Assembly: GCA_030057555.1 (NCBI GenBank)
Contig: JASGUU010000028.1
Location: 1 to 40,035 of the forward strand
DNA from: Bacillota bacterium
GTDB lineage: Bacteria; Bacillota; Clostridia; Saccharofermentanales; Fastidiosipilaceae
Length of the DNA: 40,035 bases
Direction of reading: 5' to 3'
The notes under the pieces: generated by a model
What the model saw: only the letters and a program-made list of their open reading frames with translations
Databases searched by the model: none
Told to the model about the DNA's origin: nothing
Program-made: the position numbers and the translations under genes
Part shown: piece by piece, positions 16,625 to 21,597 of the stretch
Layout: the number at the start of each line of letters is the position of its first letter
Numbering within the stretch: position 1 is the stretch's first letter

Positions 16625-16634
16625 GGAGGTGATC
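16625..16634 (+). promoter_or_regulatory. Ribosome binding site setting the TIR gene start
   Basis: GGAGGTGATC is complementary to the 3' end of 16S rRNA over ten bases. It ends six bases before the TTG at 16641, which I therefore take as the start in place of the TTG at 16623, which would lie upstream of the site. Confidence 0.7.
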
Positions 16635-16640
16635 CGCTCC

Positions 16641-19600
16641 TTGAATCCAGCACACACCGCTCCCGGTGGCAAACGCAAAAAATACGCCGCCTTTATCAGC
16701 TATCGCCATGTCGAACCCGACGCGACGATTGCCGCCCGCATTCACAGCCAGATTGAGCGCTTCAAAGTGCCCGCCGAGCTGCGCCCGGCCGGTGCCGCCG
16801 CGAACGCCCGCGTCTTTCGCGACCGCGAGGAACTGACTGCCCGCGATCTCTCGGATTCGCTGCTGGCGGCCCTCGCCGACTCCGAGTTCCTGATCGTCAT
16901 CTGTTCGCGGCGCCTGCCCCTGTCGCCCTGGTGTCTGCAGGAGGTCGAGACCTTCCTCTCGCTCAATGGTCCCGAGCGCATCATCCCTGTCCTGGTTGAG
17001 GGCGAGCCGGCCGAGTCCTTCCCGCCGGCCCTGCTCAACCTGCGCCGCGAGACGGTTCTGGCGGATGGCAGCCGGGGCGAAGAAGCGCTCGAGCTTCTGG
17101 CCGCCGATCTGCGCCCGGAAGCTGTCCGCAGCCCTGACTTTCCAGGCTATACGGCTCTCGAGGAAGCCCGGGATCCACGCCTCGCCAGATTGCGGCGTGC
17201 GGCGCTGCGTCAGCTGCGCTCCGAGAAGTATCGCATTCTGGCCACGATGCTCGGGGTCAGCTACGGCGATCTGCGCCAGCGTGACAGGATCCGCCGCAGC
17301 CGCCGCCTCACAGCCGCCTCCGCCGCGGCCCTCGTTGTCATGCTCGTCTTCGGCATCGTCCTCTTCCGTGCCTATACCCGGGCGGAAGAGGCCCGCCGTG
17401 CTGCTGTCGAGCAGAACTCCGCCCTCCTTATGAACACGGCCCTCGACCATCTCGCTGACGGTGACAGTGGACGGGCCGTTCTCATCGGCGGTCGCGCCAT
17501 GGCGCAGCTGGAGGCGGGCATGGAGACCTACGGGGACCTTGCCGCGAACTATGGCTATGTCCTGAACGAGAGTCTGCACAGCGACGGCCTCGCGTCGGAG
17601 ACCCGCATCCGGACCGAAAACTCATTCAGCTTCTCCTGCCTGAGCCCCGACGGAAGCCGGGTTGCCGCCGGCTACGGAGCAGATGCGGTCGGCGTCTGGG
17701 AGCTCGCGAATGGACGCCTCGAGATGCTGCTTACGGGGTTTCGCGCCCAGGTCAAGCTGGTCACATACAGTTCATCCGGTCATCTCCTCGCCGCCGGCGG
17801 CCTCGACAATCAGGTGCTGGTCTGGTCTGCGGAGGGTCATGAACAGCTGCGTTTCGAGGTTCCCGGGATACTCCAGCTGCTCGCCTTCAGCCCTGCCGGA
17901 GATGGCCTGCTCTATGCCTATGCGGGCGCCGACGGCAACTACATCGAGCATCGCTGGCTCGATGGCACGGCGTCCTCCGGAGTGCTGTCGCTGCCTGCCT
18001 CGACCTCGCGCATTCTTTTCCACCCGCGCACGGACACCGCCTATGTTCTCTACGATGACTACGCGAGCGGCACCAGCCTCAGCGCCTTTGACTGGCGCAG
18101 CGGTGTGAAGCTGCACGACTTCCCCATGCCGGACGAAGCCGATGCGCAGCAGCTGCTCACTTCGCCCTATCGACATCTTGCCCTGAGCCCCGACGGCGCC
18201 TTTCTATATGCGGCGACCGACGACACGATCTGCTGCTTCTCCACGGACCGCTGCGAGAAGATCTACGCTGTCTCCTGTCCGGGGATTGAGGACATCGCCC
18301 TCGCCGGTGACGGCAGCCTGCTCCATGTCGCCACGGCCCCGGACGAGGCGAACTACCGGCCGCCGCTGCTGCAGACCTTCTCCGTTCGACAGGGCGACAA
18401 AAGTCAGGGCGAGTGTGTGCGCAGACTGCAGCTGCCCACCCGTGTCACCCAACTGACTGCCGACCGGACGGACGGCGTCTACCTCCTCCTTGCTGACGGC
18501 ACGCTGCAGGCCTTTCAGGGCACCTGGCGCAGTGCGGCGGTACTGGGCAGGCCCGGTCTGACGGTCGACAGCCTCGAAGTCGCCGCCACCGACAGCCATC
18601 TGGTTCTGCTCTCGCGCCGGGACCAGAATCTGCGGATTGTCCGCATCGGCCAGTCCAACATGGGCGACCCGATCGCCGGCCAGCTGCTCGCCACGAGTCA
18701 GAACCACCGCTATGCCCTGCTCTATCGCGAAGGCGCCTATGTCATCTGGGACAGCACGGCGGGCCGTGACCATGCGATCATCCAGCCAGCCGACTCTGAC
18801 TCCGACGCGTCCGTCCCCTATTGCGACACGCGCTATCGCTATGCCGTCAGCGGCGATGGTGGCGCCTTCGCCCTGATCGACAGCGGGAGCGGCGCGACCG
18901 GCGGCCTCCTGAATTTTGTTCACCGCTTCCGCGTTTACCTGGCCGACGGAGAGCTGATTCACTACGAGGAGTATCCCATCGACTCGGAGGTGCCCTTTAT
19001 CGACTTCACCGCTGCCGGCGACGCTCTTTTCGTGCAGTGGTCGGATGGCCATGCCCGCCGCCTGCCCCGCGACACCTCGGCAGCCGAACAGATGTACACG
19101 GATCTCGCCCCCAGTCTCGCCCGCTCGCTGCGGGAGACGGCGGACGGGCGCCTCTTTTGCCTCAATCTCACCAATGGCAACTTCCACATCTATGAACGCG
19201 ACGGCGGCCGTGAGGTCATGAGCGGCAGCGGCACGGTCCTCCATCTCGAGGAGGAGGACGGTGTCCTCTGCTGTCAGGGCATCTACCTCGACCGCAGCTT
19301 CAGCATACGTGATGGTCACCGCGAAGAGGGTGCCCGGCTCAGCCGCATCCATCAGACGAGCGGCAGCTTCTTCGACGATGTCGACAGCCTGGATCCGGTG
19401 CATGACCTCTTCCTGCGCATCCGCCAGGGAGCCGATGGCTACACGGCGCTCCTCTATCGCTTCTCGACGGGCGACCTGCTGCAGCGCATTGCGATTGACA
19501 TCGACGGCTATCAGGCAAAGGGCTACCTCCGTCCGGACGGCCGCGAGCTCATCGTTTCGCGTCCGAACGCGCTCTACTTCAGCTGTGTCGACGGCAGTCC

Positions 19601-19727
19601 CGGCAGCTGCAACAGCCTCGCGCGCTACCTGATCCTGAGCGAGGAAGAACTCGCGGAAGAGGCCGCCCGCTTCAGCGCCGGACGCCAGCTGTCGACAGAC
19701 GAATGGCAGGGAGAGAATGATGAATAA
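16641..19727 (+). CDS. TIR domain, transmembrane, beta-propeller-like protein
   Basis: A 1028-residue protein. Residues about 15-140 form a TIR domain: KYAAFISYRH, VFRDREEL, DLSDSLLAALADSEFLIVICS, and SPWCLQEVE, whose Glu101 is at the place of the catalytic glutamate of NAD-cleaving TIR enzymes. A linker rich in basic residues (QRDRIRRSRR) precedes one membrane helix (about 223-244). The rest, about 290-1000, consists of repeated beta-strand units; the first resemble WD40 blades (FSCLSPDGSRVAAGYG...VGVWELANG and SGHLLAAGGLDNQVLVWS) and the later ones are degenerate. The positive-inside rule puts the TIR domain in the cytosol and the propeller outside. It overlaps the RyR-like gene by eight bases. 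Signalling or defence is inferred. Confidence 0.88.
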   Translation: MNPAHTAPGGKRKKYAAFISYRHVEPDATIAARIHSQIERFKVPAELRPAGAAANARVFRDREELTARDLSDSLLAALADSEFLIVICSRRLPLSPWCLQEVETFLSLNGPERIIPVLVEGEPAESFPPALLNLRRETVLADGSRGEEALELLAADLRPEAVRSPDFPGYTALEEARDPRLARLRRAALRQLRSEKYRILATMLGVSYGDLRQRDRIRRSRRLTAASAAALVVMLVFGIVLFRAYTRAEEARRAAVEQNSALLMNTALDHLADGDSGRAVLIGGRAMAQLEAGMETYGDLAANYGYVLNESLHSDGLASETRIRTENSFSFSCLSPDGSRVAAGYGADAVGVWELANGRLEMLLTGFRAQVKLVTYSSSGHLLAAGGLDNQVLVWSAEGHEQLRFEVPGILQLLAFSPAGDGLLYAYAGADGNYIEHRWLDGTASSGVLSLPASTSRILFHPRTDTAYVLYDDYASGTSLSAFDWRSGVKLHDFPMPDEADAQQLLTSPYRHLALSPDGAFLYAATDDTICCFSTDRCEKIYAVSCPGIEDIALAGDGSLLHVATAPDEANYRPPLLQTFSVRQGDKSQGECVRRLQLPTRVTQLTADRTDGVYLLLADGTLQAFQGTWRSAAVLGRPGLTVDSLEVAATDSHLVLLSRRDQNLRIVRIGQSNMGDPIAGQLLATSQNHRYALLYREGAYVIWDSTAGRDHAIIQPADSDSDASVPYCDTRYRYAVSGDGGAFALIDSGSGATGGLLNFVHRFRVYLADGELIHYEEYPIDSEVPFIDFTAAGDALFVQWSDGHARRLPRDTSAAEQMYTDLAPSLARSLRETADGRLFCLNLTNGNFHIYERDGGREVMSGSGTVLHLEEEDGVLCCQGIYLDRSFSIRDGHREEGARLSRIHQTSGSFFDDVDSLDPVHDLFLRIRQGADGYTALLYRFSTGDLLQRIAIDIDGYQAKGYLRPDGRELIVSRPNALYFSCVDGSPGSCNSLARYLILSEEELAEEAARFSAGRQLSTDEWQGENDE

Positions 19728-21597
19728 CGAAAAGCATGCCCCGCAGGCCGGAGCCTGGCCCTTTGTCCGGCGCCGCCTCCGCCTGCTGGTCTATCTCGCC
19801 GGCATCGTCCTGAGTCTGGTCGGCAGCTACCAGGTGGTCAGGCCGCAGACCGTGGGCGCCTGGGAGTTTGTGACGAACATGGTCAACAGCGTTGTCAAGC
19901 TCTTCATGTTTGCCCCCATCGTGCCCATCAGCGCGGTCGCTCCGCCGGCCTTTGAGCTGGCCACCTGGATCGCGCCACTCGGCACCGTGCTGGGCTTCTT
20001 TCAGGTCTTTACACGAGCCTGGCTGCGCCTGCGCCAGTGGCTGCGCCATGAGCGGCGGAGACATCTCGTTGTCCTCGGCGACGCTGTGTCAGCTGTACCC
20101 TTCCTGCTTGCACTCGCCCAGGATGACCCTGCGGAGCACCTGCTCTATCTGCTGCCGTCCGGGAGTGTTCTGGAGGCGTCCGAAGAGCTCGAGAAGCGCG
20201 GCATCCGTGTCCTGTCCTTCGATTTTGCCCACCCCCGCTGCCATGAGAATGAGATGCTGCGCCGCCGTTATCGTCTGCACGAGTCCACCGCCATCGTCTG
20301 CTTTGAGGACGCGACACATGGACTCGGCCGCCTCGCTGCGATGGACCGCCTGCTGGCTGCCACGACCAGCGAGCCGATTCCGACCCATGTTGAGAGCCAC
20401 AGTCTGCGGATGAGGGAACTGCTCGCCGAGCAGACGCCGGACTGGAGCAGCTTTGACGTGCAGTTCTTCGACCTTAACGAGCTGCGGGCACTTGAGCTGT
20501 TACAGTCGGAATGTTTTCCGCTGCATCGCACGGCGGGAATGGAACGTGCCTGGAGCAGGGACGATCTGGTGAGTGAAACAGCGCTGGCAGAAGCCATCGG
20601 CCATCCTCATCTGCTGATCGTCGGCTTTGGCGAACAGGGGCAGGCGCTGCTGCGTCAGGCCGTCAATCTGGGCACGGTCAACCCCGGACAGCCGCTTGCA
20701 GTCAGCATCGTAGACCGTGATGCCGGGCGGAACTACGATTTCTTCACCGCTGACATCGCTGACTTTGAGCGCATATGTACAGTTGAACTGTTGAATTATG
20801 ACGTCCGCGCCTGCTGTCTGCCGGCTGAACTGGAGCGCATCGCCGAGACCAGACCCTTTACCGCGGCTGCGTTCTGCCTGCCGGACAGCGAGGCAGCCGT
20901 GCTCGGCTGCGAGCGCCTGCGTCCTTTCCTTCTGAACAGGCCGACTGCCATCGCCTGTCGCCAGCCCGATGACATCAGGATCCTGTCCGCCGCCCTCGAG
21001 AAGCGCGGTGTCCGGCTGACTCTTTTTGGCTCCGACAGCGCCATCCTGAATCGGCGCGTTATCCTCAATGATGGCATGATTGAGCAGGCTCAGGCCTTCA
21101 ATGCCCGCTACAACCGTTCGGCCGCCGAGCTGGCGGGCACCCAGCCGGATTCACGCAGCCCGCGGCAGCAGTGGCAGGCGCTGAGCATGCTGGCCAAGGA
21201 ATCCAGCATCGCGCAGACTCTGCACCGGCCGGTGAAGCGTACCATCCTGGAGCAGATTGTGAGCGCGGATGATGGACTGTCGACAGTGGAGGAACTGGGT
21301 CGGAGCTGGAGCCGGAGGCTCGACGGTCTCGATATTGCGGCCCAGGTCAGCCTGATCGAATCCGACCCGGTGATGAATTTTCTGAGCGAACTGGAACACC
21401 GCCGCTGGAACAACTTCCATTATCTGCGCGGCTTCCGCTTTGCGGAAACGAAGGACTGGACGGCGAAGACTCATGACTGTCTGATTGACGACTGGGACGA
21501 CTTCCTGGCCGGCCCACAGCGGGAGAAGGTCATCTACGATTTTATTTCCGTCCTCGCTGCAGCGGAATCCGAGGATGCGGCTTCAGAGGTCGGATAA
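19720..21597 (+). CDS. Membrane protein with two Rossmann (TrkA-N/RCK-like) domains and a RyR-like C-terminus
   Basis: A 625-residue protein. Two or three hydrophobic segments (about 20-38, 52-74, 80-98) are followed by a first nucleotide-binding-like domain (HLVVLGDAVSAVPFLLAL, near 116), a second with HLLIVGFGEQGQALLRQA (GxGxxG-like, near 298-310) and an acidic VDRDA strand end, then a C-terminal helical segment SELEHRRWNNFHYLRGFRF...KTHDCLIDDWDDF (about 556-595) that matches the pattern of bacterial RyR domains. RyR domains are thought to bind nucleotides in some conflict systems. It starts inside the end of the TIR gene, with GGAG six bases before this ATG (another ATG is one codon earlier). 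Its partner role for the TIR protein is inference from this coupling. Confidence 0.8.
   Translation: MNNEKHAPQAGAWPFVRRRLRLLVYLAGIVLSLVGSYQVVRPQTVGAWEFVTNMVNSVVKLFMFAPIVPISAVAPPAFELATWIAPLGTVLGFFQVFTRAWLRLRQWLRHERRRHLVVLGDAVSAVPFLLALAQDDPAEHLLYLLPSGSVLEASEELEKRGIRVLSFDFAHPRCHENEMLRRRYRLHESTAIVCFEDATHGLGRLAAMDRLLAATTSEPIPTHVESHSLRMRELLAEQTPDWSSFDVQFFDLNELRALELLQSECFPLHRTAGMERAWSRDDLVSETALAEAIGHPHLLIVGFGEQGQALLRQAVNLGTVNPGQPLAVSIVDRDAGRNYDFFTADIADFERICTVELLNYDVRACCLPAELERIAETRPFTAAAFCLPDSEAAVLGCERLRPFLLNRPTAIACRQPDDIRILSAALEKRGVRLTLFGSDSAILNRRVILNDGMIEQAQAFNARYNRSAAELAGTQPDSRSPRQQWQALSMLAKESSIAQTLHRPVKRTILEQIVSADDGLSTVEELGRSWSRRLDGLDIAAQVSLIESDPVMNFLSELEHRRWNNFHYLRGFRFAETKDWTAKTHDCLIDDWDDFLAGPQREKVIYDFISVLAAAESEDAASEVG

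Follow-up and report, generated by a model that had tools for sequence, protein, structure and literature searches.

In a 40,035-nucleotide window (the whole stretch of DNA analysed here, positions 1 to 40,035 of contig JASGUU010000028.1, assembly GCA_030057555.1, from a Bacillota bacterium of the Fastidiosipilaceae), a gene for a membrane-anchored TIR protein (gene 1) overlaps a gene for a membrane protein with two RCK domains and a C-terminal RyR domain (gene 2). TIR enzymes of this type produce immune signals from NAD, and RyR is the nucleotide-pocket domain known from animal ryanodine receptors. It was found that relatives of gene 2 are paired with TIR genes in bacteria of many phyla. The two genes probably serve signalling or defence, with a messenger made by the gene 1 product gating the gene 2 product. 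I give a probability of about 0.55 to the reading that they form a Thoeris-type nucleotide-signalling operon with a channel-like effector. From the observed architecture, the conservation of catalytic and pocket residues, the operon layout, and the conserved pairing, I infer the identity of the messenger, its binding, the gating, the ion flow, and the role in defence. All features of the window described below lie on the plus strand.

Pairing of RyR genes with TIR and DUF4062 genes

Is this pairing found in other genomes? A scan of named genomes for RyR proteins, selected by the EHxRW motif, gave 80 loci, 79 of which were usable. The loci end at contig ends, the gene calls are the longest frames, and two loci (L093 and L119) are repeats of genomes G009 and G373. 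The seeds of the TIR profile were TIRs adjoining RyR genes, and the same profile was applied to the background. In 23 of the 79 RyR loci, the same strand carries a TIR gene separated from the RyR gene by no more than one other gene, and 22 of these are credible after a check of the catalytic Glu; the TIR match of L135 was dropped for its weak score and absent Glu. In 8 of the 79 loci, a DUF4062 gene lies close by on the same strand, directly adjoining the RyR gene. The 223 background genes, more than five positions away, include one TIR and no DUF4062. The initial annotation of this DNA had named the lack of conserved pairing in other genomes as a refutation; the pairing is present.

Several TIR-RyR pairs overlap by 4 bases, and the catalytic position is occupied by Glu in 40 of the 45 aligned TIRs. 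The paired taxa include Fictibacillus, Metabacillus, Colwellia, Pseudoalteromonas, Muribaculaceae, Sphingobacteriia, Campylobacteraceae, Lentisphaeria, and many Clostridia. Among 40 genomes with relatives or RyR-like matches, which hold about 100 TIR_2 matches overall, ten have a TIR_2 match adjoining an RyR-RCK gene or a shorter RyR gene (G000, G009, G265, G373, G268, G337, G684, G764, G521, and G283). Similar rows have been annotated by others. On the Butyrivibrio plasmid pNP243, an RCK-RyR gene is immediately preceded by a TIR gene, and an Arcobacter plasmid has NAD-binding, RyR, and DUF4062 genes in a row, with genes for type I restriction and an integrase beside them. Searched with Pfam, 86 other operon neighbours include seven with DUF4062 and four with CBS, and every other family occurs in two at most.

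The two genes also occur together at the level of genomes. Of 390 other genomes of the class, 34 have a relative of the TIR-transmembrane-WD40 protein, 34 have the RyR family, and 17 have both, while about 3 are expected (Fisher p 1e-11; p 8e-5 at the genus level), although the test ignores phylogeny within genera, where counts are not independent. In family f9, the RyR-RCK gene stands alone, yet a TIR-transmembrane-WD40 gene lies elsewhere in every sampled genome carrying RyR-RCK. This distribution is compatible with action in trans.

DUF4062 replaces TIR beside RyR-RCK genes in L096, L110, L148, L152, L159, L160, L166, L172, L014, and L173 (5953-8687). DUF4062 may make the same kind of signal as proposed for TIR. 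Homology between DUF4062 and TIR is not claimed, as the profile comparison was not significant.

Some loci have duplicated members. Tandem TIR genes lie beside RyR genes in L140 (13173-14021), L155 (2309-3274), L163 (11359-12204), and L164 (3041-3886); the upstream TIR has Arg where the catalytic Glu is expected, and the TIR that follows it keeps the Glu. Two tandem RyR membrane genes, often overlapping by 4 bases, were found in L107, L137, L139, L140, L144, L155, L163, and L164. Most of these loci have one long form and one shorter form (about 500-520 amino acids), so that a hetero-oligomeric channel is possible. L192 (4909-10177) has a different TIR-RyR arrangement: a TIR-WD40 gene stands back to back with a 96-amino-acid RyR-only gene, which is followed by a gene for 556 amino acids.

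The predicted products of the two genes

Gene 1 (16641..19727) encodes a TIR - membrane helix - WD40-type propeller protein of 1028 amino acids, and a 77% identical copy lies at the same place in a congener (G009). Its TIR domain (16692..17072) matches Pfam TIR_2 (PF13676; 2.3e-9) and TIR (4.4e-7). The TIR_2 score is above the curated cut-off (38.2 bits against 28; 41.7 bits in a second search). The predicted catalytic residue, E101 (codon 16941..16943), is the Glu within WCLQEVETF; in the alignment with the plant TIR Roq1, it falls on position 86, the catalytic Glu of Roq1. A single membrane helix (17307..17363) is indicated by hydropathy and by a long helix in the AlphaFold model. The C-terminus (approximately 17622..19700) is all-beta and WD40-type, probably forming tandem propellers; WD40-type propeller matches cover residues 334-431 of the longer, 1034-amino-acid frame, and Foldseek found WD40 and other propeller proteins with the model, whose confidence is low in that part. 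The predicted local distance difference test score (pLDDT) is mostly 80-94 in the TIR domain. Since the model is poor outside the TIR and the first helix (pLDDT 53.5), neither the number of propellers nor the blade count is claimed. The TIR domain with catalytic Glu101, the membrane helix, and the large repeat-rich C-terminus had all been noticed in the initial annotation, which had named a TIR lacking an NAD-cleaving site as a second refutation; judging from the alignment, the catalytic Glu is kept here and in most of the other aligned TIRs.

Gene 2 (19717..21597) encodes a protein of 626 amino acids, modelled with a pLDDT of 87 and a predicted template modelling score of 0.81. From sequence and model, its layout is TM1 - pore-type helix - TM2 - RCK1 - RCK2 - RyR, where TM denotes a transmembrane helix. 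Single-sequence searches of Pfam, NCBIfam, PADLOC, and PDB gave nothing useful for gene 2 alone, and only family profiles worked. No PADLOC 2023 model matches gene 2 or 39 relatives. A full-length family profile that excludes the genus of the window finds the protein at 2e-59. A 40-sequence profile matches MthK at 4.9e-8 over profile positions 18-226, and also matches TrkA, KefC, and solved RyR domains. The fold matches of the AlphaFold model include GsuK (Z 17.2), the MtDMI1 gating ring (Z 17.5), CASTOR, TrkA, and BK; NAD- and ADP-bound GsuK are among the nearest full-length ones.

The membrane part (TM1 - pore-type helix - TM2, residues 14-111, 19756..20049) was assigned by the MthK profile alignment, the GsuK fold match, and the pore stretch, which lacks a TVGYG filter. 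The initial annotation had not pointed out this channel-like part. RCK1 (about residues 114-255, 20056..20481) is supported by TrkA, MthK, and KefC profile matches and by fold matches, and RCK2 (about residues 298-450, 20608..21066) by sequence, alignment, and a fold match to the NAD-bound KTN structure 1lss. RCK2 carries GFGEQG and an invariant D333 at the end of the second strand, which is, by its sequence, an NAD-binding signature. Thus, the two Rossmann-like domains seen earlier in gene 2 are of the RCK type. Gene 2 was rejected as a potassium channel by the usual definition, for want of the TVGYG filter, and it is called only channel-like here.

The RyR domain (residues 551-615, 21367..21561) was recognized with family profiles. 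Gene 2 alone does not reach the RyR (PF02026) cut-off and has no Pfam match at E <= 1, so the single-sequence evidence is weak; four close architectural relatives (G055, G083, G135, and G367) pass the cut-off. Built without the window's genus, a profile of 136 RyR domains recovers residues 552-615 at 2.5e-14, while the best of 1000 shuffles reached 0.36. The family profile matches the solved RyR1 chimera at 7.5e-14 and the bacterial RyR 3nrt at 3.6e-6. A profile of seven RyR-only proteins reaches the window only at E 0.39. The end of gene 2, for which the initial annotation had named an unrelated fold as its remaining refutation, is thus RyR-related by family profiles.

What does the domain bind? 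In RyDEP, residues H75, W78, H100, and D117 bind and cut the cyclic ADP-ribose (cADPR) isomers 2'cADPR and 3'cADPR (PMC13232231). In the RyR1 chimera 6uhi, the equivalents lie at +3, +25, and +42 from the first His, and the RyDEP spacing is identical. From a 40-protein alignment, the spacing in 6uhi, and the roles in RyDEP (PMC13232231), the gene 2 equivalents are H561 (of H75; 21397..21399), W564 (of W78; 21406..21408), H586 (of H100; 21472..21474), and D608 (of D117; 21538..21540). All four are invariant in the 40 aligned family proteins, and the RyR motif, these residues included, is the most conserved part of the gene 2 protein.

Small RyR-only genes (87-116 amino acids) adjoin full-length RCK-RyR genes in L068 (9328-9627), L099 (6996-7346), L100 (9104-9406), L101 (6807-7091), L120 (7260-7523), L121 (8665-8955), and L167 (9040-9321). 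Their products are possibly signal sponges or degraders.

Proposed mechanism and rival explanations

In the Thoeris-type operon proposed here, the propeller part of the membrane-anchored TIR enzyme would receive a trigger, and the triggered TIR, through Glu101, would use NAD+ to make an ADP-ribose-type messenger, which may be a cyclic ADP-ribose isomer. The RyR domain of gene 2 would bind this messenger in the pocket of H561, W564, H586, and D608. The double-RCK gating ring may then relay the change to the TM1-pore helix-TM2 part, which would open, and the cell would be stopped or killed. The initial annotation had a similar idea, namely a TIR protein that detects something at the envelope and makes a signal for the RyR/Rossmann partner, which perhaps gates ion flow or harms the cell. 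The conserved pairing, the RyR tail, and the catalytic Glu speak for it, while many RyR-RCK and TIR-transmembrane-WD40 genes are unpaired. The idea of ion flow is strengthened by the match of the membrane part and RCK1-RCK2 to channel subunits; the potassium filter is absent.

Several points weigh against this operon, besides the dependence among genome counts mentioned above. No close TIR or DUF4062 gene on the same strand was found in 48 of the 79 RyR loci, and many TIR-transmembrane-WD40 genes stand without an RyR partner; no constant neighbour of such stand-alone genes was found. In the profile comparison, the sequences of the DUF4062 partners show no detectable likeness to TIR. Conduction is uncertain because the filter motif was not found in the pore stretch of any of the 40 aligned members. 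There is no clear enrichment of PADLOC defence families among 91 flanking proteins, where retron-type reverse transcriptase and mad-like matches occur in one or two loci only. Some TIR partners match the PADLOC models of ThsB and SAVED-TIR, and a defence role is therefore plausible.

It may be asked whether the RCK ring, not the RyR domain, is the sensor. The TIR would then consume NAD+, and RCK2 would sense the drop of NAD or the rise of ADP-ribose or ADP and change the channel-like part, with RyR as a helper or anchor. The GFGEQG motif with its invariant Asp and the NAD- and ADP-bound GsuK structures among the closest fold matches suit this explanation. I consider it unlikely, since the RyR motif is conserved most, including the equivalents of the four RyDEP residues in contact with cADPR isomers, and the small RyR-only genes beside several family members suggest that RyR itself matters. 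Those same small genes, which resemble stand-alone sponges or enzymes, fit an off-switch, as do H561 and D608, the equivalents of the RyDEP catalytic dyad; the RyR domain would hydrolyse or sequester the TIR product, and gene 2 would limit the signal, as RyDEP does for phages. This is less likely still. A pure degrader needs neither a channel-like membrane part nor a double RCK ring, and cleavage of the signals was not seen with other RyDEP homologues, while six of the eight tested bound them (PMC13232231).

A coupling with no small-molecule signal, where the TIR oligomerises as a scaffold or makes direct contact with gene 2, seems improbable. The Arg of the upstream TIR in the tandem pairs indicates that some TIRs are structural, but the second TIR of those loci and nearly all others keep the Glu, and the existence of DUF4062 partners argues for a shared ligand over a TIR-specific contact. 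That the two genes are chance neighbours, or passengers joined only by defence islands, is very improbable. Many family members are unpaired, as this would predict; however, the enrichment is strong, with the same strand and overlapping frames across phyla, other defence genes are not clearly enriched nearby, and the locus counts (22 TIR and 8 DUF4062) and the genome co-occurrence already contradict it.

How does the Thoeris-type operon compare with known systems? Like Thoeris (ThsB TIR and ThsA effector), it has a TIR with the catalytic Glu beside a putative signal-sensing effector, and the ThsB matches of some TIR partners agree with this. In contrast, the Thoeris effector is SIR2-SLOG or Macro, whereas the partner here is an RCK-RyR channel-like protein with no known ThsA-type effector adjoining, and the TIR has a membrane anchor and a propeller part. 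RyDEP shares the R12/RyR domain family and the four pocket residues with gene 2, but it acts in phage counter-defence as a soluble protein, by cleaving or sequestering the signal (PMC13232231), while the RyR domain here forms the C-terminal end of a host membrane protein whose gene lies beside that of a candidate signal maker. MthK, GsuK, CASTOR/DMI1, and BK/Slo have TM1-pore helix-TM2 followed by RCK, as gene 2 does, and the RCK is double in GsuK, CASTOR, and BK; gene 2 differs in lacking TVGYG and in having the extra C-terminal RyR domain. What gene 2 is shown here to share with animal ryanodine receptors is an RyR (Repeat12) domain within a channel-like membrane protein, not homology of the pore; in animals, RyR is one small peripheral domain of a differently built Ca2+ channel of roughly 5000 residues.

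TIR signalling systems are common to bacteria, plants, and animals; of their effectors, I know of NADases, Macro-TM proteins, and caspase-like proteases. If true, a conserved pairing of TIR with an RyR channel-like protein would bring a membrane effector into TIR signalling. The long-disputed role of the RyR domain as a receptor of ADP-ribose-type messengers would become testable in a two-gene bacterial system, and the alternation of TIR and DUF4062 beside the same receptor makes DUF4062 a possible new signal maker. A further speculation, which I hold only tentatively and think doubtful as a whole, is a bacterial ADP-ribose-gated channel with the R12 domain as the receptor, TIR or (in other operons) DUF4062 as the synthase, and the RyR-only genes as the off-switch; the cADPR-like pocket of the animal RyR would then descend from a bacterial immune module or have a parallel in one. 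No description of a TIR-RyR pair was found in the literature covered; Burroughs, Aravind and colleagues (2015), outside it, may mention RyR-TIR neighbourhoods, and no priority is claimed.

Gene starts, flanks and other loci

Both open frames are present where the initial annotation had placed them. A Shine-Dalgarno match, GGAGGTGATC (16625..16634), was read directly in the sequence. Gene 1 has an alternative in-frame start at TTG 16623, which gives the 1034-amino-acid frame; TTG 16641 is the better start because GGAGGTGATC stands just 5' of it. Gene 2 has in-frame ATG codons at 19717 and 19720. The former gives an 11-base overlap with gene 1, and the latter gives the 8-base overlap noted earlier. 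The gene pair is flanked by what I take, from my own reading of the frames, to be an sbcCD-like pair, and on the other side by a weak URO-D-like gene and then a presumably thrS-like gene, again by my own reading of the frame. The G+C content of the gene pair is inside the range of its surroundings, and thus no foreign-DNA signature was seen. A search with the RyR protein found no phage copies in 50,697 records.

Stand-alone RCK-RyR genes in L015, L017, and L020 lie near open reading frames that resemble radical-SAM/SPASM peptide-maturation genes by my own reading of one translated frame. In the TIR-paired L018 (3286-5183), the RCK-RyR gene is split by an apparent frameshift and the adjoining TIR frame is also broken; this copy may have decayed, or the assembly may be in error.

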